Part shown: piece after piece, positions 9,016-20,018 of the stretch
Layout of the letters: each line of letters opens with the position of its first letter
How positions within the stretch are numbered: position 1 is the stretch's first letter
Assembly (NCBI RefSeq): GCF_009208105.1
Contig: NZ_WFKL01000001.1
Span: 3,038,001 to 3,102,000 of the forward strand
Length of the DNA stretch: 64,000 nucleotides
From: Rouxiella sp. S1S-2
Lineage (GTDB): Bacteria > Pseudomonadota > Gammaproteobacteria > Enterobacterales > Enterobacteriaceae
Direction: 5' to 3'
Position numbers and translations under genes: made by a program
Notes under the pieces: model-generated
Seen by the model: the letters and a program-made list of their open reading frames with translations, nothing else
What the model was told of the DNA's origin: nothing
Database searches by the model: none

Positions 9016-9468
9016 TCACAGAGACTGTGGCAGCTTCTTGCTACAGTTTTTATTCGGGTAAACCAGCCAGGAGTCGCCTTCAATTAGCTGCCAATTCGCT
9101 CCTTGAGCAATCAGAACTTTGGCTAAACGCTCCCGCAACGTCGTAACCTCGTCATACAGGCTTTGCAACAGCATGCCTTTCACCAAACGTATCTGCGGCA
9201 ACGCGCGCTCCAGTTGATGGATAATCTTGATAAAACCCGCCACTGCGCGGTTGTTCTGATTCTCTTTGCTGCAGTTGACAAAATCACAGACGATCAGCTC
9301 TTCGTTTTCAAAACGATACACCAGCTCAAAATCTGCATGTTTGATGCGAAAGCCGATAATTAAATCACTGTTGCCAAAACGTTCGACCTGCGGCGCAAAG
9401 CCGTTGGCCGCCAGATAGCGGGTGACGATATCAGTTTTTGGGGATGTTGTTGATGTTGTTGTTTGCAT
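9016..9468 (-). CDS. SseE-like T3SS translocon-operon protein
   Basis: A 150-residue protein resembling Salmonella SseE (about 137 residues) in its central and C-terminal part: ELIVCDFVN, a run of about 40 residues rich in Leu/Ile, then LAKVLIAQGANWQLIEGDSWLV, which parallels SseE in spacing and key residues. It probably acts as a small accessory or chaperone protein for the translocator operon; Edwardsiella EseE occupies the same slot. AAGGAAAG precedes its start. It is the last gene of the reverse operon and converges on the transglycosylase gene with about 20 bases between. Confidence 0.72.
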   Translation of the reverse strand: MQTTTSTTSPKTDIVTRYLAANGFAPQVERFGNSDLIIGFRIKHADFELVYRFENEELIVCDFVNCSKENQNNRAVAGFIKIIHQLERALPQIRLVKGMLLQSLYDEVTTLRERLAKVLIAQGANWQLIEGDSWLVYPNKNCSKKLPQSL

Positions 9469-9538: not shown

Positions 9539-10150
9539 TTACATACGGACTTTGTCCAGAATAGCCGCCTGCAGGCGGGTCAATTCGCCGGTCATTTCCA
9601 GCATACGGCGTGAAGCTTCAACGGCTTTATCGGCCGCGGCGCTGATGGTCTGGCGGATCTGGTTCGCGTGAGTCTGCTGATAATCAGCCTTTAGCTCGAT
9701 TTTCTGCGCGTCGCGGGAAATACCCGCGCTCGCCACGCCAATGCTGCCTTCGGCGATTTTACCGTAGGCATTCATGCCATCGCTGACCGCTTTCGTCGCT
9801 TCCATAAATTTACCGCCGGCCACATTTGGGCTCACGCCGATTGCGGTAGCGCCCACCAGAGAAACAGCACCCGTCGCGATTTTCACACCCGCATTCATTA
9901 CGGCTGCTTTGTAGTTGGTTTCGATTGCTTCACTTTTGAGATCAAGCGAGGCAATTTCTTTATCAAAGGCGTTCTTAAACGATGCGCTAACGAAATCGCG
10001 TTGGATATCGCGGATTTCACCGTTCATTTTTTGCAGCATCATCATCACTTCATTCAGGGTGCCGATCACGCCTTGGCCATTTACTGCGTCCATTGCGCTG
10101 GATGGGGAAGAGATTACCGGTGCTGCATTTACTTGATTAATCGTTGTCAT
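9539..10150 (-). CDS. sctB: T3SS minor translocator SctB (SseD/EseD/EspB-like)
   Basis: Predicted minor pore protein of 203 residues (SseD 195) inserted with the SseC-like protein in the host membrane. A central hydrophobic Gly/Ala/Val-rich segment lies at about residues 88-115 (NAGVKIATGAVSLVGATAI). The flanking parts are helical and polar, with a C-terminal coiled-coil-like tail ending MTGELTRLQAAILDKVRM. Length, hydrophobic pattern and position downstream of the SseC-like gene support the call. No signal peptide is present, as expected for T3SS substrates. Confidence 0.8.
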   Translation of the reverse strand: MTTINQVNAAPVISSPSSAMDAVNGQGVIGTLNEVMMMLQKMNGEIRDIQRDFVSASFKNAFDKEIASLDLKSEAIETNYKAAVMNAGVKIATGAVSLVGATAIGVSPNVAGGKFMEATKAVSDGMNAYGKIAEGSIGVASAGISRDAQKIELKADYQQTHANQIRQTISAAADKAVEASRRMLEMTGELTRLQAAILDKVRM

Positions 10151-10239: not shown

Positions 10240-11019
10240 TCAGGACAGCGAGCCGGTTAGACTGGCTATGTTGTGTCCCGCTTGTTCCATCGTTCTGTCG
10301 GAATTAATGTCCGACCCCAGTTGATTCTGGGTCATTTGTTCAATTTTCTTCGCGACCTGATCAGCCAGTTTGCCGAGCGTATCGTCAAGATATCCTTCGT
10401 CTTTATCGTCCACCGCGTTCGCCGAGAGGACTTCACCCAGCTGATTTGCCGCCTCGTGGGCTATGTGCTGGGTATCCTTATTGTTTATCAAGGCCAGCGC
10501 AGCCAGGTTTTCTGCGACGGTACTTACCGCCTCCAGAAGCTCACGCTGATAGCTGATATCAATCCCCTGATTGCGAATTTCATACGCCACCAGCGCGATG
10601 ACCGTAATCAGCGGCAACAGCTCCGCCCGCAGATTCCTTTCGCGTTCACGCTGCTCCACAAACAGCGTGTTGATCAAGTCCATAACCTCTGCGCGGCTCA
10701 TGGGGGCAGTTGACACCGAGTTCGAACCTTCGAGCTCAGTTGCCATCTTGCCGAGTAACTCCGTGGCCACCTCTTTCTCGTGTCCACTGAGCGACGGCGA
10801 AAAGACCTTGTCAAACCCCGCGCTTAATTTATCGGTGTTGCCACTGTCGCCCAGCTCATGCAGTACCCCCACCAGTTGCCCTTTATCCAGCATAGGCAGC
10901 GTGTCGGTATGAACATCAGATAAACGTGCTTTACCGATGGGCATTGGGCTACTTATTTGTGCCATGGCGGATGACACAGAATCATTCAAACGCGGGCTCA
11001 TTGCCCCTATGCCAGCCAT
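10240..11019 (-). CDS. Unrecognised T3SS operon protein with one hydrophobic segment
   Basis: A 259-residue protein I do not recognise, between the major and minor translocator genes. The N-terminal about 30 residues are Ser/Met-rich, like T3SS secretion signals. One hydrophobic helix lies near residues 143-160 (LLPLITVIALVAYEIR) within an otherwise charged, helical sequence. GGGAGA precedes the ATG, and only 13 bases separate it from the SseC-like gene. No counterpart sits at this point in Salmonella SPI-2 (sseC-sseD are adjacent there). It may be an additional translocon component, a chaperone or an effector; the sequence does not decide. Confidence 0.75.
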   Translation of the reverse strand: MAGIGAMSPRLNDSVSSAMAQISSPMPIGKARLSDVHTDTLPMLDKGQLVGVLHELGDSGNTDKLSAGFDKVFSPSLSGHEKEVATELLGKMATELEGSNSVSTAPMSRAEVMDLINTLFVEQRERERNLRAELLPLITVIALVAYEIRNQGIDISYQRELLEAVSTVAENLAALALINNKDTQHIAHEAANQLGEVLSANAVDDKDEGYLDDTLGKLADQVAKKIEQMTQNQLGSDINSDRTMEQAGHNIASLTGSLS

Positions 11020-11032
11020 ATAATCTCCCGAG

Positions 11033-12574
11033 TTACACCATAGATGAAGCTAACTGCGCGTGCGTAATACCCACAGTGTTCAACGTCTGAACCCCTTCTT
11101 CAATGATAGAGGACTGGCCTTGCTGAAGTTCGCGCACTCTGTCGATAGCCTTTTTCTTGGCGTCGTCATATAGATCGAAGATCATCTGGTTCCACTGCTG
11201 GTCAACGATAAGCGTGTCAATCCTCTTCTGAATCTTGGCGCGCTGAACGTCGATGATGCCGGTGCCCAGGGACTGTGCACCCTTAGTCATCCCCAGAGCA
11301 GTTTTCACTACACCGCTGATGGCAGGTGCGCACTTAAAGGCCTCTTTCTGCACCGTGTTACGCAGAGTAGCCAGCACTTGGTCAGTGACTTTTTGGGTCG
11401 CCGCATCTTTGCCTTCTTTAAGCGCTTTTTTACCGACACTTTCCAGGCTTTCTTTGACCATTTTTTCTACACCTTCTTCACTGAAGGTTTTCACCATCTT
11501 GCTGGTACAGATTTTCTTAATAAAACTTCCACCGGCTTTCTGTCCAACATTGAAGGTCTGTTTAGCCAGCTGGGTGGTGATCAGCTGAGCACTTTCTGCG
11601 GCGACCTTTTTGGCAATCTCTGTCGCGGCAGCGGCTATAATCTCCTGACCTCCGGCTTTAGTGGCCGACTTGGCGCCTTCTTTGATAGCGGTGTTCATGA
11701 TGGCCTCACCGCCCTCTTGCATGACTTTTTTGGTGACGTTTGGCATGATTTTGGCGACGATCGCATTTTTAACCGCGCTGGTGATATCGACCATTGCACC
11801 GGCAATTTCAAAGCCCATCTGCACATGACCGGCTTTTGCAGCCATATCGTGATATTTTTCGGCATTATCCGGGTCGACCAGCGCCAGCGTATTGGCAACC
11901 GCTTTAACCACCCCGGCACAGCCTGCAAGCAGGTCCATCGCGCCGCCCGCAACCATCATCGGATTGCCGCTCATCGCACCACCCACGATTTTAACCACGC
12001 CGGTAACCACTTCTACCGCCGCCACAACCCAGTCCATGACCACGCTGATAATGCCGGCTTTCTTGGCCTTATCCTGCTGTTCAAGATTAGCGGCCATCTG
12101 CGCCTTGCGGTCTTCGAGCTGTTCAGCACGCACTCTTTCCTGCTTGTCGGTGAGGATCTTCATCACTTCGCATTTTGAGGTCACCGTATTGCCCAAAATT
12201 TCATTCGACAGCAGCGTAGAAGCCATAAACATCGAGTCCATCGGCATCTTGGTGATGGTATCGAGTTTAAGATTTAGCCCTACTTTTTCAGGGTCAGCGC
12301 TGGCTTTTTCCGGGTCATTACTGGCCTGTGCCAAAGCGCCCATGACTCTTTCCAAAGCGTCTTCGGCGGCCTTGCGTGGAACAATGCTGCCCGCTAGCCG
12401 CGGTGTTGCCAGCGCAGAAATTGCGGCGCTGGTCGCCGCAGAAAACACGGCTGACACGTTTGACGTGGTTTGAGTGATTTTTGTCAGCTGCTGCAGCGAA
12501 ACCTCAGCAGCGGAGTGAATGCTGTCTTCAGCAACAGCGGTGTTGCCAAAGGAACGATCGAGGGTAATTGTCAT
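11033..12574 (-). CDS. sctE: T3SS major translocator SctE (SseC/EseC/EspD-like)
   Basis: Predicted pore-forming translocator of 513 residues (SseC 484). Two hydrophobic segments lie close together: about residues 185-205 (MDWVVAAVEVVTGVVKIVGG) and about 210-235 (MVAGGAMDLLAGCAGVVKAV). Long amphipathic helices and a Lys/Glu-rich C-terminal coiled-coil region flank them. The start codon overlaps the stop of the chaperone gene upstream by four bases and is preceded by AGGAAGAAA. It should act with the SseD-like protein and be delivered through the SseB-like filament. Confidence 0.88.
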   Translation of the reverse strand: MTITLDRSFGNTAVAEDSIHSAAEVSLQQLTKITQTTSNVSAVFSAATSAAISALATPRLAGSIVPRKAAEDALERVMGALAQASNDPEKASADPEKVGLNLKLDTITKMPMDSMFMASTLLSNEILGNTVTSKCEVMKILTDKQERVRAEQLEDRKAQMAANLEQQDKAKKAGIISVVMDWVVAAVEVVTGVVKIVGGAMSGNPMMVAGGAMDLLAGCAGVVKAVANTLALVDPDNAEKYHDMAAKAGHVQMGFEIAGAMVDITSAVKNAIVAKIMPNVTKKVMQEGGEAIMNTAIKEGAKSATKAGGQEIIAAAATEIAKKVAAESAQLITTQLAKQTFNVGQKAGGSFIKKICTSKMVKTFSEEGVEKMVKESLESVGKKALKEGKDAATQKVTDQVLATLRNTVQKEAFKCAPAISGVVKTALGMTKGAQSLGTGIIDVQRAKIQKRIDTLIVDQQWNQMIFDLYDDAKKKAIDRVRELQQGQSSIIEEGVQTLNTVGITHAQLASSMV

Positions 12575-13056
12575 GATATTTCTTCCTTGTTAGGGGTCAG
12601 CATCCTTTTTGCGCTGTCCTTAATTGCCTGATATTGAGTTTGTTCGCCGCACCACATAATGGAGGCGTTTAGTGCCTTAACTGACTGTTCTTCACATCCC
12701 ATATACTGCAGGCTGAGCGCCGTAAAAAATGCGCTACGGGGATCGTCTATTTTTAGCGTCGCGACGCGAGTAAAACAGCTAATCGCCTCGCCGTGGTCTT
12801 TAAGGCGTTGATGGCATAGTCCTAATGCCAGCAGGTATTCGATATTCCAATGATCCAGCGTGCTGAGCAGCAGATAAATATTGCGCGCTGCGCCAAAGTT
12901 ACTGGAGCTAAACAACTGACTTGCATAAGCCTCGAGACTTTGAAGATCCTCATCAGCCACGTCTGAAATCATGCGCAGTGAACCCCCGCGCGTAAAGAAG
13001 TGCTGGAGAACGTCGCTGTCGCTGGCGTTCTGCAAATCAAAACTATTTTCTAACAT
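12571..13056 (-). CDS. Class II T3SS chaperone (SscA/SycD/EscA-like)
   Basis: A 161-residue TPR-type chaperone (SscA is about 157). Repeats such as AYASQLFSSSNFGAARNIYLLL, YLLALGLCHQRLKDHGEAI and AFFTALSLQYMGCEEQSVKAL follow the helix-turn-helix TPR pattern of SycD proteins. It lies directly upstream of, and overlaps, the SseC-like gene, the normal position for the dedicated chaperone of the major translocator. Confidence 0.9.
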   Translation of the reverse strand: MLENSFDLQNASDSDVLQHFFTRGGSLRMISDVADEDLQSLEAYASQLFSSSNFGAARNIYLLLSTLDHWNIEYLLALGLCHQRLKDHGEAISCFTRVATLKIDDPRSAFFTALSLQYMGCEEQSVKALNASIMWCGEQTQYQAIKDSAKRMLTPNKEEIS

Positions 13057-13136: not shown

Positions 13137-13547
13137 TCAGGCAAATGAGCGGCGGTGCTTCTTGGCAATAGCCGTGCGTACTGGCTTCTCGGCTTCTGCA
13201 ACGGTGGCCTTCTCGGCAACACTCGCCTGGCTTGCCTTTTTGACGCCTACTTTCTCGTCGGGGATCAGCTGTTTCAGTTGCCTTCCCAACTCGTCAAAGG
13301 TTTTTCTAACGACGGCGACTTTATCAACGACCGGCTGATGAAGCGGTTTCTCACCTTTAGTCATCACTTCGCTCAACTTTTGCAACTTATTCATTGCAAT
13401 AGGACAGCGGTCAGCATTGTCATAAATCTTGCCAATTTCGCCCTGAAGCGACTTAAACTCTTCAATTTGCTTTTTAAAGCCGAGACGACGTCTTTGCAGC
13501 GCATCGATCATGCTTTTCAGTTCTTCCATTTGCTTCGATTCATTCAT
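13137..13547 (-). CDS. SseA/EscC-like chaperone for filament subunits
   Basis: A 136-residue coiled-coil protein resembling the SPI-2 chaperone SseA (about 108 residues), which binds SseB and SseD. Shared features are the heptad-rich N-terminal half (ALQRRRLGFKKQIEEF) and the later VRKTFDELGRQLKQLIPDEK, close to SseA's ending. It has an extra Ala/Lys-rich tail of about 30 residues, ending AIAKKHRRSFA. The ATG at 13547 has GAGGAGAG upstream; a TTG five codons earlier is unlikely. In Salmonella sseA precedes sseB; here it follows the six sseB-like genes in the direction of transcription. Confidence 0.75.
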   Translation of the reverse strand: MNESKQMEELKSMIDALQRRRLGFKKQIEEFKSLQGEIGKIYDNADRCPIAMNKLQKLSEVMTKGEKPLHQPVVDKVAVVRKTFDELGRQLKQLIPDEKVGVKKASQASVAEKATVAEAEKPVRTAIAKKHRRSFA

Positions 13548-13621: not shown

Positions 13622-14500
13622 TTAGCGAATTGACTGAGCAATCGACTTGGTCGATTCACCGTTCATACTCTGTACGGCGTTGGCCATCGCCACGGCGGTA
13701 TTAAAACTCTGCATTAGCTGCTGTAATTTTAATTGGCTGCTTTGCACAAAGTCAGTAGCACGCGTAGCGGTGGATTCGAGTGCGCCTTTAATTTCTTCTA
13801 GCTGGAACTTATCTAACTTAACCTCTTTGAAGGCAAGTTTTGGTGTAAAATTATCATTAACACAAGCTTTAATTTTATTAATATTTGCAACGGATATGTC
13901 ATAACCTTTACCGATACCATTATTAACCAAGATCGACGAAAAAAAATCTAAGGATTTCTTTCCATCAATAAGAATACCTGCCTTTTCTAAATTCGTTAAA
14001 AGATTTAAAACGTTTGTTACGTGTCCAACGGTTACTGTTCCACCTTTAGCCCCACTTAAAAGCTCATTTAAATAATCAATTCCCTGCTGAATTTTTTCAG
14101 ATTCAGGCGTCATTACAGGTTCATGACCATTTGCCTTCAAATACTCTTTAATCGATACGCCACCGATCTGAACGTTGTTTTTGTCCATATACTCGATAAC
14201 GTCCGGCGGCAATTCGCCGACGTCTTTACCGCTTGCCAGCTTAGCAATAATACCTTCAACGCGGTTAGCCATATCGGTAGCGTCGCGGCCTACGCTGGTT
14301 TTATCCTGCATCTGCTTAAATTTGCCCTGGGCCAGTTCGGTAAACATCAGCATCATCTCTTCCATGGTGACCATCGCGCCGCCCATCATCGAGTGATTTT
14401 GAATTGCTTTAAGATAATCGAGATCGTTTTTAGAAATATCCGTTTCTGCGACTGCACCGGCGTTCAATACATTAACGCTTTCATTAATAGCGGTAGCCAT
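13622..14500 (-). CDS. sctA: SseB/EspA-family filament protein, copy F (292 aa)
   Basis: Last of six tandem filament-subunit paralogues. Residues 1 to about 121 are shared with copies C-E (NHSMMGGAMVTMEEMM, then DVIEYMDKNNVQIGG), and the last about 63 are shared with all (RATDFVQSSQLKLQQLMQSF). The conserved parts align with Salmonella SseB around VIxYMxxNxxxIxG and the C-terminal amphipathic helix. The central segment (about 122-229) is long and carries its own sequence (ELLSGAKGGTVTVGHVTN). The stretch KANGHEPVMTPES is shared only with copy E, so E and F look like a recent duplicate pair. Predicted to be secreted and to polymerise on the needle. Confidence 0.9.
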   Translation of the reverse strand: MATAINESVNVLNAGAVAETDISKNDLDYLKAIQNHSMMGGAMVTMEEMMLMFTELAQGKFKQMQDKTSVGRDATDMANRVEGIIAKLASGKDVGELPPDVIEYMDKNNVQIGGVSIKEYLKANGHEPVMTPESEKIQQGIDYLNELLSGAKGGTVTVGHVTNVLNLLTNLEKAGILIDGKKSLDFFSSILVNNGIGKGYDISVANINKIKACVNDNFTPKLAFKEVKLDKFQLEEIKGALESTATRATDFVQSSQLKLQQLMQSFNTAVAMANAVQSMNGESTKSIAQSIR

Positions 14501-14521
14501 GGTGTTAATTCCTTTTTAAAT

Positions 14522-14549
14522 AATCGGAGAATAATCCCTTCCCCCGATT
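14522..14549 (-). repeat. Spacer hairpin between copies E and F
   Basis: Inverted repeat AATCGG/CCGATT with a 16-base interior. The spacer is 67 bases, shorter than the others because one AT-rich block is missing. No long U tract follows in the direction of transcription. Confidence 0.6.
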
Positions 14550-14567
14550 TTATATTTAGCTTATTAC

Positions 14568-15437
14568 TTAACGAATTGACTGAGCAATCGACTTGGTCGA
14601 TTCACCGTTCATACTCTGTACGGCGTTGGCCATCGCCACGGCGGTGTTAAAACTCTGCATCAGCTGCTGTAATTTTAATTGGCTGCTTTGCACAAAGTCA
14701 GTGGCACGCGTAGCGGTTGATTCGAGTGCGCCTTTAACTTCTTCTAGCTGGAACTTATCTAACTTAACCTCTTTATAGGCAAGTTTTGGTGGAATATTAT
14801 CTTTTACAAGAGTTTTAATTTCCTCGATACGACCGGCTGTAGCAGTATATCCTTTTGCATCATCACCCTTTAAAATACCAGTGATAGATGAATAGATATT
14901 ATTACCATTGACAATGATATTTTTATTTTCAAGGGCCTCAAGGGCCTTGAACAGTTCTAAAGTCAATTTGCCGTCTTTTTTACTCACGGCTTCTAATTGT
15001 TTAATTATGTTATTAATTTCATCCTGAATTTTTTTAGATTCAGGTGTCATTACAGGTTCATGACCATTGGCCTTCAAATACTCTTTAATTGATACGCCAC
15101 CGATCTGAACGTTGTTTTTGTCCATATACTCGATAACGTCCGGCGGCAATTCACCGACGTCTTTACCGCTTGCCAGCTTGGCAATAATACCTTCAACGCG
15201 GTTAGCCATATCGGTGGCGTCGCGGCCTACGCTGGTTTTATCCTGCATCTGCTTAAATTTGCCCTGCGCCAACTCGGTAAACATCAGCATCATCTCTTCC
15301 ATGGTGACCATCGCGCCGCCCATCATCGAGTGATTTTGAATTGCTTTAAGATAATCGAGATCGTTTTTGGAAATATCCGTTTCCGGGACTTCGCCGGCGT
15401 TCAATACATTAACGCTTTCATTAATAGCGGTAGCCAT
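14568..15437 (-). CDS. sctA: SseB/EspA-family filament protein, copy E (289 aa)
   Basis: Tandem filament-subunit paralogue closest to copy F. It shares the N-terminal about 130 residues and the C-terminal 63-75 residues, including LAYKEVKLDKFQLEE against LAFKEVKLDKFQLEE in F. The middle (about residues 137-212) is distinct: Lys/Leu/Ile-rich and helical (EINNIIKQLEAVSKKDGKL), then NGNNIYSSITG. The start follows the repeated ribosome-site sequence AAAAGGAATTAACACC, common to most copies. Its AT content rises sharply in the variable part. Confidence 0.9.
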   Translation of the reverse strand: MATAINESVNVLNAGEVPETDISKNDLDYLKAIQNHSMMGGAMVTMEEMMLMFTELAQGKFKQMQDKTSVGRDATDMANRVEGIIAKLASGKDVGELPPDVIEYMDKNNVQIGGVSIKEYLKANGHEPVMTPESKKIQDEINNIIKQLEAVSKKDGKLTLELFKALEALENKNIIVNGNNIYSSITGILKGDDAKGYTATAGRIEEIKTLVKDNIPPKLAYKEVKLDKFQLEEVKGALESTATRATDFVQSSQLKLQQLMQSFNTAVAMANAVQSMNGESTKSIAQSIR

Positions 15438-15480
15438 GGTGTTAATTCCTTTTAAAATAATTGATGAATGTTTTTTAAAT

Positions 15481-15508
15481 AATCGGAGAAAAATCCTTTT
15501 CGCCGATT
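15481..15508 (-). repeat. Spacer hairpin between copies D and E
   Basis: AATCGG paired with CCGATT, extended inside by GAAAA/TTTTC around a four-base loop. Read on the transcribed strand it is followed by ATTATTTAAAAA, a weak terminator-like or processing signal. Confidence 0.6.
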
Positions 15509-15526
15509 TTATCTTTAGTTTATTAA

Positions 15527-16261
15527 TTAGCGAATTGACTGGGCAATCGATTTAGTCGATTCACCGTTCATACTCTGCACGGCGTTGGCCATCGCTACCG
15601 CGGTGTTAAAACTCTGCATCAGCTGTTGTAATTTTAATTGGCTGCTTTGCACAAAGTCAGTGGCACGCGTCGCGGTTGATTCGAGTGCGCCTTTAACTTC
15701 TTCGAGTTCGTGTTTATCTAACTTAACGCTACTATATTTGTCATCACGTTTATTCTTCCATCCTTCTAAGTCTTTCTTATATTCTTCAATTTTTTCTGGT
15801 GAATGTGTATTTTCACGTATCAAAGTATCATAATATCTAACACACGCCTCTATATTACTGAGATCAAATATAAAATTTTTGTCCCCGCTTACTCCCATTA
15901 AATAATCGTCAACAGATTTACCACCAATCAGAATATTATTATTTTTCATGTGCTTGATCACGTCCGGCGGCAATTCGCCGACGTCTTTACCGCTTGCTAG
16001 CTTAGCAATAATGCCTTCAACGCGGTTAGCCATATCGGTGGCGTCACGGCCTACGCTGGTTTTATCCTGCATCTGCTTAAATTTACCCTGCGCCAACTCG
16101 GTAAACATCAGCATCATCTCTTCCATGGTGACCATCGCGCCGCCCATCATCGAGTGATTTTGCATTGCTTTAAGATAATCGAGATCGTTTTTGGAAATAT
16201 CCGTTTCCGGGACTTCGCCAGCGTTCAATACATTAACGCTTTCATTAATAGCGGTAGCCAT
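15527..16261 (-). CDS. sctA: SseB/EspA-family filament protein, copy D (244 aa)
   Basis: Tandem filament-subunit paralogue with the common N-terminal block (to about residue 121, ending GGKSVDDYL) and C-terminal block (from about 182, LDKHELEEVKGALES). Its short middle (about 122-181) is unlike the other copies and highly charged, with aromatic residues (IRENTHSPEKIEEYKKDLEG). The variable DNA is AT-rich: 37 G or C in the 120 bases at 15781-15900, against 33 in the 60 bases at 16021-16080 of the conserved part. Confidence 0.9.
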   Translation of the reverse strand: MATAINESVNVLNAGEVPETDISKNDLDYLKAMQNHSMMGGAMVTMEEMMLMFTELAQGKFKQMQDKTSVGRDATDMANRVEGIIAKLASGKDVGELPPDVIKHMKNNNILIGGKSVDDYLMGVSGDKNFIFDLSNIEACVRYYDTLIRENTHSPEKIEEYKKDLEGWKNKRDDKYSSVKLDKHELEEVKGALESTATRATDFVQSSQLKLQQLMQSFNTAVAMANAVQSMNGESTKSIAQSIR

Positions 16262-16304
16262 GGTGTTAATTCCTTTTAAAATAATTGATGAATGTTTTTT
16301 AAAT

Positions 16305-16332
16305 AATCGGAGAAAAATCCTTTTCGCCGATT
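16305..16332 (-). repeat. Spacer hairpin between copies C and D
   Basis: Same hairpin sequence as the D-E spacer (AATCGG/CCGATT with inner GAAAA/TTTTC), within an almost identical 89-base spacer. Confidence 0.6.
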
Positions 16333-16350
16333 TTATATTTAGCTTATTAC

Positions 16351-17088
16351 TTAGCGAATTGACTGGGCAATCGATTTAGTCGATTCACCATTCATACTCT
16401 GCACGGCGTTGGCCATCGCCACCGCGGTGTTAAAACTCTGCATCAGCTGTTGTAATTTTAATTGGCTGCTTTGCACAAAGTCGGTGGCGCGAGTGGCGGT
16501 TGATTCAAGTGCGCCTTTAACTTCTTCGAGTTCGGCTTTTGACAGGTTAACACCATTTTTTTTATATAAACTCTCAGGATCACCGCCTTCATCTTTAACT
16601 GCTTTTGTATATGCGGCTATTTCCCTATTTACTCTCTCAGAATCATTTCGGTGTTCAGGAGCCAGACGCTCTGTATCATTCCAATACAACAGGTTCCATT
16701 CAGCATCAGTATGTCCATGAGACTTAAGGTACTCTTCAATGGACTTCCCACCGACCAGAACGTTATTATCTTTCATGTACTTGATCACGTCCTGCGGCAA
16801 TTCGCCGACGTCTTTACCGCTTGCCAGCTTGGCAATAATGCCTTCAACGCGGTTGGCCAAATCGGTGGCGTCACGGCCTACCGAGGTTTTATCCTGCATC
16901 TGCTTAAATTTGCCCTGGGCCAGTTCGGTAAACATCAGCATCATCTCTTCCATGGTGACCATCGCGCCGCCCATCATCGAGTGATTTTGAATTGCTTTAA
17001 GATAATCGAGATCGTTTTTGGAAATATCCGTTTCTGCGACTTCGCCAGCGTTCAATACATTAACGCTTTCATTAATAGCGGTAGACAT
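16351..17088 (-). CDS. sctA: SseB/EspA-family filament protein, copy C (245 aa)
   Basis: Tandem filament-subunit paralogue. The conserved N-terminal block runs to about residue 121 (GGKSIEEYLKSHG) and the C-terminal block from about 183 (SKAELEEVKGALES). The middle is hydrophilic and unique, with Trp, Tyr, Arg and Asp (WNLLYWNDTERLAPEHRND). Its last about 185 coding bases are identical to those of copy B. Identity stops abruptly inside the codon run before the variable part, the pattern left by gene conversion or cassette exchange. Confidence 0.9.
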   Translation of the reverse strand: MSTAINESVNVLNAGEVAETDISKNDLDYLKAIQNHSMMGGAMVTMEEMMLMFTELAQGKFKQMQDKTSVGRDATDLANRVEGIIAKLASGKDVGELPQDVIKYMKDNNVLVGGKSIEEYLKSHGHTDAEWNLLYWNDTERLAPEHRNDSERVNREIAAYTKAVKDEGGDPESLYKKNGVNLSKAELEEVKGALESTATRATDFVQSSQLKLQQLMQSFNTAVAMANAVQSMNGESTKSIAQSIR

Positions 17089-17130
17089 GGTGTTAATTCC
17101 TTTTAAAATAATTTATAAATGTTTTTAAAT

Positions 17131-17158
17131 AATCGGAGAAAAATCCTTTCCGCCGATT
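17131..17158 (-). repeat. Spacer hairpin between copies B and C
   Basis: Same outer stem AATCGG/CCGATT as the other spacers, with one change in the inner stem. The A-B spacer (17909-18050) is unrelated and lacks it. Confidence 0.6.
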
Positions 17159-17176
17159 TTATATTTAGCTTATTAA

Positions 17177-17908
17177 TTAGCGAATTGACTGGGCAATCGA
17201 TTTAGTCGATTCACCATTCATACTCTGCACGGCGTTGGCCATCGCCACCGCGGTGTTAAAACTCTGCATCAGCTGTTGTAATTTTAATTGGCTGCTTTGC
17301 ACAAAGTCGGTGGCGCGAGTGGCGGTTGATTCAAGTGCGCCTTTAACTTCTTCGAGTTCGGCTTTGTTAAAATTCACCTTACTCAACGCAGAAATAAGAC
17401 CAGCTTCAGCGGCTTTCAACCCTGTTTTTGCATTAGCAATATCTTCTGGTGTCTTAGCGTTTTCGAGCTTAGCAACGGCTGACTTAACTGCATTCTGAGC
17501 AACAATAATATTAATTTTCGTACTACCTACAGTGGTCGCGTTATACAAATAATCGTCAACAGATTTTCCGCCGATCTGAATATTATTCTTTTTCATATAC
17601 GCGATAACGTCTGACGGTAATTGCACAACCGCATCACCGTTTTTTAGCTTAGCAATAATGCCTTCAACGCGGTTAGCCATATCGGTGGCGTCACGGCCTA
17701 CCGAGGTTTTGTCCTGCATCTGCTTAAATTTGCCCTGGGCCAGTTCGGTAAACATCAGCATCATCTCTTCCATGGTGACCATCGCGCCGCCCATCATCGA
17801 GTGATTTTGTATTGCTTTAAGATAATCGAGATCGTTTTTGGAAATATCCGTTTCCGCGACTGCTACATCGGCGAGTACACTTACATTTTCGTTGTTGATA
17901 TTTGACAT
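17177..17908 (-). CDS. sctA: SseB/EspA-family filament protein, copy B (243 aa)
   Basis: Second filament-subunit paralogue in transcription order. Its first about 17 residues (MSNINNENVSVLADVAV) differ from copies C-F; from AETDISKNDLDYLK onward it joins the common N-terminal block. The centre (about 121-180) is a helical Ala/Lys-rich insert (VAQNAVKSAVAKLENAKT), unlike every other copy. The C-terminal 63 residues are identical in sequence to copies C-F. It also differs from its neighbours at residues 89-97 (KNGDAVVQL instead of ASGKDVGEL). Confidence 0.9.
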   Translation of the reverse strand: MSNINNENVSVLADVAVAETDISKNDLDYLKAIQNHSMMGGAMVTMEEMMLMFTELAQGKFKQMQDKTSVGRDATDMANRVEGIIAKLKNGDAVVQLPSDVIAYMKKNNIQIGGKSVDDYLYNATTVGSTKINIIVAQNAVKSAVAKLENAKTPEDIANAKTGLKAAEAGLISALSKVNFNKAELEEVKGALESTATRATDFVQSSQLKLQQLMQSFNTAVAMANAVQSMNGESTKSIAQSIR

Positions 17909-18050
17909 GATTGGTAATTCCTTTTATTTACTTTCCGTTTTATGTCGCCGACAGAGAATTCCCTGCCGACGGTTGACCGCTTTATTCTTTTACTTTTTTC
18001 ATTTACTGCTAAATAACTTTTTACTCATAATCGTCGATTAAGAAAAATTA

Positions 18051-18788
18051 TTAACGAATTGACTGAGCGATAGCTTTAGTCGATTCTGCGTTCATGCTCT
18101 GTACGGCGTTAGCCATTGCTACCGCGGTGTTAAAGCTCTGCATAAGCTGTTGCAGTTTCAACTGGTCTTGCTGTACGAAGTCAGTAGCACGAGTTGATGC
18201 TGATTCCAGGGTGCTCTGAATGGATTTCAGTGCTTTTTTATCTAAACCGCCAGCAGCACCGCCTTCGACTTCAGAATCGCCATCGGCTGATGGCGCTGCA
18301 GGGGACGGACGGGTAGTATTGCCTGCTGCTGCAACTTCTTCTGCATTCTCACCGGCAGCACCACTTACTGGGGAAGATTTGGTCGCCATAGCGAATTTGC
18401 CGGCGTCTTTATCTTTTTTAGCACCGCCGAGGAAATCTTCCAGCGGTTTATTGTTCACCAGGATGTTATTTTCTTTAATATATTCAAGAATATCTTTATC
18501 AAGGGTCGCGGTACCGTCTGCCGTTGCAATACCCGCCAGTGCTGATTCAACCCTTGAGGCCATTTCGGAAGCGTCACGACCAACGTTGGTTTTTTCTCTC
18601 ATCTGCTCAAACTTCTTAGCAGCCAATTCGGTAAACATCAGCATCATCTCTTCCATGGTGACCATTGCGTCGCCCATGATTGAGTGGTTTTTCATTGCCA
18701 TCAGATAATCGTTCTTCTGAACGCCAGTCTTCTCTGTAGCTGAAGTAGTTTGTGCTGTGTTTACACGACCTGTATCAATGTGGCTCAT
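18051..18788 (-). CDS. sctA: SseB/EspA-family filament protein, copy A (245 aa, most divergent)
   Basis: First gene of the translocon operon and the most divergent of the six. N-terminal block: NHSIMGDAMVTMEEMMLMFTE, then ILEYIKENNILVNNKPLEDFL. C-terminal block: STRATDFVQQDQLKLQQLMQSF, ending KAIAQSIR. The centre (about 125-185) is Ala/Gly/Ser/Pro/Glu-rich and probably disordered (SGAAGENAEEVAAAGNTTRP). The ATG at 18788 has AGGAAA eight bases upstream; an earlier in-frame start at 18824 would add 12 residues but lacks a ribosome site. It could be the founding or default subunit. Confidence 0.9.
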   Translation of the reverse strand: MSHIDTGRVNTAQTTSATEKTGVQKNDYLMAMKNHSIMGDAMVTMEEMMLMFTELAAKKFEQMREKTNVGRDASEMASRVESALAGIATADGTATLDKDILEYIKENNILVNNKPLEDFLGGAKKDKDAGKFAMATKSSPVSGAAGENAEEVAAAGNTTRPSPAAPSADGDSEVEGGAAGGLDKKALKSIQSTLESASTRATDFVQQDQLKLQQLMQSFNTAVAMANAVQSMNAESTKAIAQSIR

Positions 18789-18984
18789 TACATATTTCCT
18801 GTTAATTGATAGATACTCTTTCACAACGCTTTCCTAAGTAATTTCGCTCCCTGCTGCGCTGTTAGTGGGGCCATACTAGCGGTTCAATAAAAGTAAACTT
18901 CCGGTTTTGTGCAAAAACTTCTGTTTTTTTTCACCCTGCTTTTTTATTACCCAATTCAACTCCCCCTCTCTCCAACCGCCAATG

Positions 18985-19000
18985 TCAGGTCAATACCTGA
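18985..19000. promoter_or_regulatory. Perfect palindrome between the translocon and needle operons
   Basis: TCAGGTCAATACCTGA, a six-base inverted repeat around CAAT, in the 276-base gap between divergent copy A and the araC-like gene. Its place suggests an operator for a T3SS regulator acting on both operons. No regulator can be named from the sequence; the local AraC-type protein is one candidate, although such proteins usually bind direct repeats. Confidence 0.5.
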
Positions 19001-19064: not shown

Positions 19065-19793
19065 ATGCCAGCAATAAGATTTATCGTAACGAAAAGCGCG
19101 ATATCTTTTTCGCATAAAGGGGAGTTGCATGATTTTCCGGCTAACAGCCTGATAATTACTGACAATCACGCTAAAATGGTCCGTAAAATCGAAAGTTCCA
19201 ATACAATTATTATCGATTTTTTTTGTGCTGACCTGCAGCAACTTTATTCATCAGTAACAGAATTGCTTGATTCAAACGTACAACAAACACTGAGTCAGGA
19301 ACTCATTAAAACGGTGGGTGCGGAACGCGTTGTTATAGAGGTGCTCTATTCGCTCGCGACTTTATCCGCAGACAGTTTTCTTCAATTTTGTTACACCTAT
19401 TGCCTGACCCGCGAAAGAGCCTATTTCTCAGCGCTATTACGCCAGCGAATTTCAGGTAATAAAGAGTTTTGTCATTTTATTGAAGAAAACTTTCTTCAGC
19501 AGTGGACCATTTCGCAAATAGCCGAAAACTTAGATTTACCTTTACGTAAATTCAACCAGCTATTTCAGGACACCTACGGTAAACCAGCCAAACGCTGGCT
19601 ATTAGAGCGCAGGCTCGAACATGCCAAAAATCTGCTGATTACCACCCCGCTACGCGTTATTGATATCGCGCTGGAGTGCGGTTTTTCGAATCATGCCCAT
19701 TTTACCGATACGTTTCGTCGCCACTACAGCTGTAATCCGAAACAGGTGCGGGAATATAAACGTCAAGACAGTGTTAACGAATTAAGAATGTGA
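19065..19793 (+). CDS. AraC-family T3SS regulator (EsrC/InvF-like)
   Basis: A 242-residue transcription regulator. The N-terminal about 130 residues match no common sensor domain I can name. The C-terminal about 100 residues carry the double helix-turn-helix of AraC/XylS proteins: WTISQIAENLDLPLRKFNQL, then the second, more conserved motif IDIALECGFSNHAHFTDTF followed by RRHYSCNPKQVREYK. Only nine bases separate its stop from the needle gene, so it probably heads the needle operon and may activate its own transcription. Edwardsiella EsrC and Salmonella InvF are comparable T3SS activators; orthology is inferred from context. Confidence 0.85.
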   Translation: MPAIRFIVTKSAISFSHKGELHDFPANSLIITDNHAKMVRKIESSNTIIIDFFCADLQQLYSSVTELLDSNVQQTLSQELIKTVGAERVVIEVLYSLATLSADSFLQFCYTYCLTRERAYFSALLRQRISGNKEFCHFIEENFLQQWTISQIAENLDLPLRKFNQLFQDTYGKPAKRWLLERRLEHAKNLLITTPLRVIDIALECGFSNHAHFTDTFRRHYSCNPKQVREYKRQDSVNELRM

Positions 19794-19802
19794 GGAACAA
19801 CA

Positions 19803-20018
19803 ATGGATATTGAAGCAGTAACTAATCAGCTTTCGCAACTGGTAGAAAGTGCAGGTAATGAAGTTCAGTCGAAAGTGACTGCCACCGACATGAATGATCC
19901 CGCCCAAATGCTGAAAGCACAGTTTGCGATTCAGCAATACTCGATTTTCGTCAGCTATGAGAGTGCCGTTATGAAGGCTGTCAAAGATATGCTTTCGGGG
20001 ATAATTCAAAAAATATGA
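19803..20018 (+). CDS. sctF: T3SS needle protein SctF (SsaG)
   Basis: Needle subunit of 71 residues, the same length as SsaG. The C-terminal half (MLKAQFAIQQYSIFVSYES, then VKDMLSGIIQKI) is nearly SsaG residue for residue, with the conserved polymerisation helix. GAGGAACAAC precedes the ATG. The stop overlaps the next start (ATGA). Confidence 0.96.
   Translation: MDIEAVTNQLSQLVESAGNEVQSKVTATDMNDPAQMLKAQFAIQQYSIFVSYESAVMKAVKDMLSGIIQKI

Follow-up and report, generated by a model that had tools for sequence, protein, structure and literature searches.

The hollow tip filaments of the EspA type have been described as one-protein polymers: EspA has one gene per genome, with variation between strains and not within one genome, and Salmonella pathogenicity island 2 (SPI-2) carries one copy of SseB. 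A larger set is described for Cpi-2 of Chromobacterium violaceum, where four EspA homologues, CseB1-CseB4, form two short/long pairs; the EspA section of that paper proposes that the central insertion of the long forms is surface-exposed and D3-like, proposes a heterodimer filament, and cites Betts 2004 on CseB (Pallen 2005, PMC1084347). Here we analyse a window of 64,000 nucleotides of Rouxiella sp. S1S-2 (contig NZ_WFKL01000001.1, positions 3,038,001 to 3,102,000), in which six tandem genes encode EspA/SseB-type proteins of a type III secretion system (T3SS), their ends homogenised within the genome and several of their centres traceable across species. With somewhat better than even confidence, we read this array as a single operon whose products form a composite (heteropolymeric) T3SS tip filament of specialised subunits.

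Six tandem EspA/SseB-type genes

Between positions 13622 and 18788, the minus strand carries six intact genes matching PF03433 (EspA/SseB-type), arranged head to tail. From the first gene of the array onward, these are c6 (18051-18788, 245 amino acids, centre 18237-18428; its start in the list of open reading frames (ORFs) is a GTG at 18824), c5 (17177-17908, 243 amino acids, centre 17363-17545), c4 (16351-17088, 245 amino acids, centre 16537-16725), c3 (15527-16261, 244 amino acids, centre 15713-15898), c2 (14568-15437, 289 amino acids, long centre 14754-15074) and c1 (13622-14500, 292 amino acids, long centre 13808-14137). All six exceed the PF03433 cut-off of 23.4 bits (c1 scores 167 bits and c6 154) and lie in a T3SS locus, in agreement with an earlier reading of the letters alone (hereafter the original prediction) that had proposed six tandem T3SS filament genes. 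Searching the genome with this profile returned eight matches, every one above the cut-off and within c1-c6, with c3 and c4 matched as two pieces each. For the two copies scanned against NCBIfam, NF052422 (translocon_SseB) was the best model (c4, 138.6 bits; c6, 117.1 bits), and neither copy reached its equivalog cut-off of 155 bits.

The array is built on a 300-nucleotide 5' block and a 264-nucleotide 3' block, each present six times, the five other repeats being 60-97% (5' block) and 61-93% (3' block) identical to the reference copy. Within c1-c5, amino-acid identity is 79-98% over the N block (121 residues) and 95-100% over the C block (61 residues); c6 is only 44-48% and 77-79% identical to the others. 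The predicted sharing of ends thus holds for c1-c5, whose ends are near-identical, but much less for c6, which by sequence is a more diverged lineage, common to copy 1 of the R. badensis array. The intervening centres measure 61-64 amino acids in c3-c6, 107 in c2 and 110 in c1. They had been called unrelated or strongly divergent, and forced alignment bears this out in 14 of the 15 pairs (3-18% identity overall, 9-18% within c1-c5), but the centres of c1 and c2 are related (47 of 104 residues). Judged by eye, the c5 centre is rich in alanine and lysine and probably helical, and that of c6 is rich in alanine, proline and glycine and probably disordered.

Separate histories of ends and centres

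The nearest named relatives that we found are R. badensis and 'Serratia sp. Leaf50'. Alongside the six window copies, we read arrays in R. badensis (six copies, Rba_1-6), R. aceris (five, Rac_1-5) and Winslowiella (seven, Win_1-7). Maximum-likelihood trees of the end blocks cluster the copies by genome and not by centre type, with joined-end support of 96 for R. badensis copies 2-6 and of 100 for both R. aceris 1-5 and Winslowiella 1-7. The approximately unbiased (AU) test rejected trees constrained to follow centre type, whether applied to the joined ends (p = 2.7e-6 for the window/R. badensis pairs and 5.3e-6 for a wider grouping), to the N block alone (8.4e-5 and 1.6e-36) or to the C block alone (0.013 and 1.3e-9); the Shimodaira-Hasegawa (SH) test on the C block did not reject the pair constraint (p = 0.078). 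Synonymous divergence (dS) of the end blocks is 0.15-0.45 (N) and 0-0.69 (C) within c1-c5, as against 0.76-0.96 (N) and 0.69-1.07 (C) between c1, c4 and c5 and their centre-matched R. badensis genes. Silent differences between c1 and c2 occupy 34 of 64 sites in the centre versus 14 of 102 in the ends (Fisher p = 8e-8, with the boundary placed after the profile was seen; a second boundary gave p = 4e-9), a drop that points to recombination rather than protein constraint. Three more pairs that were profiled have similar steps at differing positions, and c4 and c5 have zero differences across their last 61 codons. Judged from these sequences, the ends are homogenised within each genome by gene conversion or unequal exchange, and this homogenisation is confined to the ends.

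Four centre types are common to the window and R. badensis, and in the same order: c6 with Rba_1 (26/63 residues identical, z 11.9), c5 with Rba_2 (26/59, z 13.8), c4 with Rba_4 (27/53, z 24.2) and the c1/c2 type with Rba_6 (46/110 for c1, z 42.7), the remaining R. badensis places being held by Rba_3, which is near-core-only, and Rba_5, of the c5 family. The c1 centre has a further orthologue in Rac_5 (28/86, z 12.5), c4 has one in Leaf50 (protein P0010), and Rac_4 matches Win_5 (26/66, z 12.0). Leaf50 centres are identical to those of the window at 54 of 60 residues for c4 and 58 of 61 for c6, and its c3-, c4- and c5-like genes bear consecutive locus tags (14430, 14435 and 14440), arranged as in the window. 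For five R. badensis copies, database relatives (three R. badensis and two Joint Genome Institute entries) have centres identical at 103/105, 57/58, 48/48, 56/56 and 51/51 aligned residues, the last differing by four residues in length.

Single-linkage clustering of 67 proteins with centres of at least 25 amino acids gave families of 32, 12, 5, 5, 3, 3, 2 and 2 members and three singles, sizes that are not independent, since several database entries duplicate array proteins. A further 28 proteins are near-core-only; five of 100 proteins, which could not be divided, were excluded, and P0001 and P0003 were omitted as identical to c1 and c2. The 32-member family comprises long forms from Rouxiella, Winslowiella, Serratia, Aeromonas, Klebsiella and Chromobacterium and holds both c1 and c2, and the 12-member family contains the c3 and c5 types. 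The centre of Chromobacterium protein P0042 is identical to that of Win_5 at 45 of 81 residues (z 31.8); this subtype is present in R. aceris and Winslowiella, with a distant link to c1/c2 (c1-Rac_4, z 5.9). Centre-only searches, the window's own copies counted, found four proteins for c3 and two for c5, which suggests that both types are young or fast.

The ratio of nonsynonymous to synonymous divergence (dN/dS) in the centres is 0.29 for c1/Rba_6, 0.56 for c5/Rba_2, 0.68 for c6/Rba_1 and 0.48 for c1/c2 (dS was saturated for c4/Rba_4, and in five of 13 pairs overall); in the ends of c1/Rba_6 it is about 0.12 (N) and 0.03 (C). Positive selection on the centres was considered and set aside: no pair exceeds 1, and the highest value, 0.99, pairs c5 with the non-orthologous Rba_5. 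The centres thus appear weakly constrained, not demonstrably positively selected. Between the window and R. badensis, the four matched centres are 43-51% identical in amino acids and ten neighbouring genes 47-93%. Phase variation by simple repeats was likewise dismissed, only three weak tandem repeats being present.

Position and origin of the centres

Phmmer places the centre between residues 124 and 131 of EspA (PDB 1xou, 7k7k, 7khw), and a profile of 50 relatives puts it at about EspA 127-128; the match (5e-5 with phmmer, 9e-9 with the profile) is carried by the N-block piece. The EspA inter-helix loop is described as carrying hypervariable residues and allowing insertions in a 2025 paper whose reference list includes a title on chimeric EspA-FliC filaments (PMC12607632), monoclonal epitopes of EspA lie at about residues 94-118 (PMC4250835), and the central region of EspA is reported to be polymorphic (PMC4250835, PMC12607632). 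Because the insertion aligns near the loop that these papers treat, the array centres likely face outward, as the original prediction had supposed from EspA; the argument is one of homology.

In several long forms, the motif at the end of the N block is repeated internally: among 23 proteins tested, five had z-scores of 7.3-10.4 (P0025, 10.4; P0057, 10.2; Win_3, 7.3; and P0026 and P0029), and P0039 and P0042 scored 6.0-6.7. From this repeat, the centre of the long family, and of that family only, probably arose via internal duplication of the motif, which would offer an easy way to gain a new outer domain. As an origin of the window's own centres, internal duplication was undetectable in c1 (z -1.2), c2 (z 0.7), c3, c4 and c5; the repeat was also undetected in other long forms, such as Rac_5 (z 1.4) and Win_6 (z 1.2).

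Intergenic regions and a putative operator

The five gaps of the window array each have a predicted stem-loop. The first, between c6 and c5 (17909-18050, 142 nucleotides), also holds a ribosome site; that between c5 and c4 (17089-17176, 88 nucleotides, z -0.9) closely resembles the three that follow, c4-c3 (16262-16350, 89 nucleotides), c3-c2 (15438-15526, 89 nucleotides) and c2-c1 (14501-14567, 67 nucleotides, z -1.9), so that four of the five are closely alike, and every one of the six genes is a complete ORF with its ribosome site. Across the four arrays, stem-loops are predicted in 18 of 20 gaps, at a similar place but with different sequence; of the two gaps without one, one is shortened by an over-long ORF start and the other is 544 nucleotides long. 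Folding scores of six gaps against shuffled sequences range from z -0.9, in the window, to -6.2, and the significance of the stem-loops is therefore uneven. They may stabilise or process the message.

A palindrome, TCAGGTATTGACCTGA (18985-19000), lies between the array and a divergent AraC-type gene. The pattern TCAGGTNNTNACCTGA has a single site in the window and four in the genome, where the reversed pattern has none. Another site (G000:C1:3034999-3035014) lies 3 kb before the window, flanked, by eye, by a secretin-operon-like gene and a response-regulator-like gene, and two divergent promoter regions of the T3SS locus carry the pattern; the remaining two sites, inside coding frames, were rejected as operators and are probably due to chance. 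The arrays of R. badensis and Winslowiella are also preceded by the palindrome, of which the R. aceris stretch lacks an exact copy. From its placement and recurrence, the palindrome at 18985-19000 is a probable operator. Win_7 is preceded by a 544-nucleotide gap (L050:6942-7485) with a second palindrome, and may therefore be transcribed on its own.

The surrounding locus

The window is part of a 5.18-Mb contig in the 5.36-Mb genome, and by its gene content the locus around the array is an SPI-2-like T3SS, with profile matches to SseC, SctB2/SseD, an SscA-type chaperone, SseE, SctF, SctI, SctV, SctN, SctR, SctT and SctU. At lower coordinates, SctV, SctN, a FliMN-type protein, SctR, SctT and SctU are followed, on the minus strand and up to the array, by SseE (9016-9468), the SctB2/SseD-like translocon protein (9539-10150), a 259-residue protein (10240-11019), the SseC-like translocon protein (11033-12574), a SycD/LcrH/SscA-type translocator chaperone (12571-13056) and a small protein (13137-13544). 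The 259-residue protein, encoded between sseC and sseD, had no family match over the cut-off; a homologue 47% identical occurs in the R. badensis stretch, and the stretches from R. aceris and Winslowiella yielded none. The small protein, directly after c1, had no significant family match (no Pfam match), and a homologue directly follows the last filament gene in each of the other three arrays; we regard it as a candidate filament-subunit chaperone. On the other side of the array, the plus strand carries the divergent AraC-family regulator (19065-19793) and the needle subunit SctF (19803-20018); SctI and further parts also lie on this side. None of the 31 neighbouring proteins scanned, several of which matched nothing, matched a recombinase family.

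Distribution

PF03433 was matched in 38 of 392 genomes of the family (a draw including the window's own), four of which have arrays of five to seven copies (G000, G001, G002 and G123); the earlier statement that known systems have one or a few such genes was therefore roughly right. Another genome, G732, has an apparent adjacent pair, judged from the match list only. An overlapping smaller draw gave 25 of 295 genomes; in the genus that contains the Winslowiella array 2 of 37 matched, and in a class-wide draw 2 of 369, these last being the window's own genome and one match below the cut-off. Six Rouxiella genomes, counting the window's own, divide evenly: in three, filament genes occur together with an SseC match, and in the other three both are missing. 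Near-core-only copies occur in the other arrays (Rba_3, Rac_1, Rac_2, Win_2 and Win_7); the smallest centre in the window has 61 amino acids. A plasmid origin was considered and rejected: tblastn with c5 matched four plasmid records, all from Arsenophonus, with 77% covered at 34%. The main text of a paper on R. badensis strains mentions neither EspA, SseB nor a filament (PMC9749400), and a search covering few subscription journals found no publication on arrays of more than four EspA-type genes.

Short and long EspA-type proteins from Serratia proteamaculans, Serratia quinivorans and Aeromonas salmonicida entries come from contigs of equal length and look alike by eye (P0024/P0052, P0026/P0033 and P0029/P0045), which may reflect recent horizontal spread of a short/long pair.

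Alternative explanations for the array

In the composite filament that we favour, each subunit would combine a common two-block polymerisation core, EspA-type N and C by homology, with a different domain inserted, as alignment places it, at a loop that would face outward. The six would be expressed jointly from one upstream promoter, as the anatomy suggests, be served by shared chaperones and co-assemble into one filament, with the core held constant because the subunits co-assemble. Gene conversion or unequal exchange between neighbouring copies homogenises the ends within each genome, whereas the centres are spared and stay distinct from one species to the next, those of c6, c5, c4 and c1/c2 having counterparts in R. 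badensis. The centres might then have distinct jobs, such as filament positions, needle or pore contact, or adhesion to different surfaces. Mixed filaments, which the original prediction had listed among its proposals, are supported as a possibility. That the six co-expressed subunits assemble in a set order, with gene and export order placing their outward domains at different levels of the filament, is a bolder and doubtful extension; if true, the T3SS filament would be modular, comparable with multi-flagellin flagella, and the converted ends would keep every subunit fitted to one lattice.

Several observations weigh against the composite filament. The window c1-c5 clade has support of only 70 (joined ends) and 74 (N block) and is not recovered in the C-block tree because R. 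badensis copies nest inside it; C-block dS ranges overlap (0.69 for c4/c1 versus 0.42 between species for c4/Rba_6 and c5/Rba_6); and c6 and Rba_1 are not homogenised with the remaining copies. The C-block piece alone has no significant match to EspA (independent E-values of 1.2 and 4.8). As for the centres, no R. badensis copy is a clear match for c3 (z 3.5), Rba_3 is almost without a centre (12 amino acids), and the Leaf50 centres of c3 (38/59) and c5 (only 20/46 identical) differ strongly from the window's, showing that these two diverge fast between close relatives; it is this unevenness towards Leaf50 that most favours local diversification. Separate homopolymers with shared chaperones would be equally compatible with concerted evolution.

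Such homopolymers seem to us unlikely. Each subunit, or each short/long pair, would form its own filament, the choice depending on the order of secretion, on chaperone preference or on conditions, and one cell would show different filaments across times or hosts. The same anatomy would be expected, and the long gap and palindrome of Win_7 hint at independent control of at least one copy elsewhere; however, the window has a single upstream palindrome, its gaps of 67-142 nucleotides contain none, one candidate chaperone follows the last gene, and the end blocks are constant.

An antigenic reservoir, recombining through the constant ends and driven by host immunity, phages or protists, is disfavoured, and we consider it quite improbable. 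Centre dN/dS in orthologous pairs (0.29-0.68) does exceed that of the c1/Rba_6 ends, c3 and c5 differ strongly from Leaf50 where c4 and c6 do not, and EspA itself is polymorphic centrally (PMC4250835, PMC12607632). Against this, centre types and their order persist across species, and R. badensis-type centres are nearly invariant in the five database sequences compared. Neither a clear chimeric centre, nor phase-variable repeats, nor a dN/dS above 1 was found: apart from c1/c2 (score 91), no nucleotide match between two centres of one genome scores above 30, and those that reach it (c6/c4, z 8.6; Win_3/Win_6, z 6.1) are short stretches. Shuffled centres were not seen in the four arrays read (one genome per species, with few allele proteins), and the array has no silent or partial cassettes, its six genes all being complete. 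A switching store, or the antigenic-variation store of the original prediction, is thus not supported, the array having one upstream operator-like site and no recombinase match among its neighbours. Fixation of all six centres in the relatives, which that prediction had itself named as counting against it, is approached, since four recur; it stops short of all six, c3 and c5 being different.

Dosage and drift, whereby tandem duplication raised subunit supply and an unconstrained surface loop diverged neutrally, is very improbable, for although tandem duplicates with homogenised ends fit it, filament length in enteropathogenic Escherichia coli (EPEC) tracks EspA supply (PMC5073101) and the EspA loop tolerates insertions (PMC12607632), some centre types are long-lived, as between Chromobacterium P0042 and Win_5, and dN/dS stays under 1 wherever an orthologous pair allowed an estimate.

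Comparison with known systems

With arrays of five to seven such genes, whose core is homogenised and whose unrelated centres persist, filament composition would become a variable, and direct questions could be asked about the filament's outward face by deleting one gene at a time. The split history of each gene, with ends converted and centres orthologous, is a clear bacterial case of concerted evolution limited to a probable assembly interface.

Relative to EspA of EPEC and enterohaemorrhagic E. coli (PDB 1xou, 7k7k, 7khw), the array proteins belong to the same family by sequence and have the two-block layout, with variation about the same place, but the 192-residue EspA chain has no inserted domain. 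SPI-2-type SseB has the same neighbourhood (SscA-type chaperone, SseC, SseD, SseE and SctF), whereas c4 and c6 score below the NF052422 cut-off. The Bdellovibrio flagellum contains six flagellins, five of them with determined places along the filament (PMC2791853); as six paralogous subunits in one filament it is a model for such a design and suggests by analogy, though not by membership, since it is a flagellum and not an injectisome, that an ordered multi-subunit filament can work.

The direct precedent is the short/long EspA pairs of C. violaceum, with the mixed filament proposed for them (PMC1084347). There, too, EspA homologues are adjacent and the long ones carry a central insertion, and the long protein P0042 of Chromobacterium sp. 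ATCC 53434 has the Rac_4/Win_5 centre type. The window lacks the core-only copy of a short/long pair, whereas the arrays of R. badensis, R. aceris and Winslowiella each include at least one that is near-core-only; and where C. violaceum has two short/long pairs, the window has a run of six (five to seven in relatives) with several unrelated centre types, its ends evolving in concert, a feature absent from the EspA section of that paper. Given this precedent, the array is a striking enlargement of a known, little-studied arrangement.

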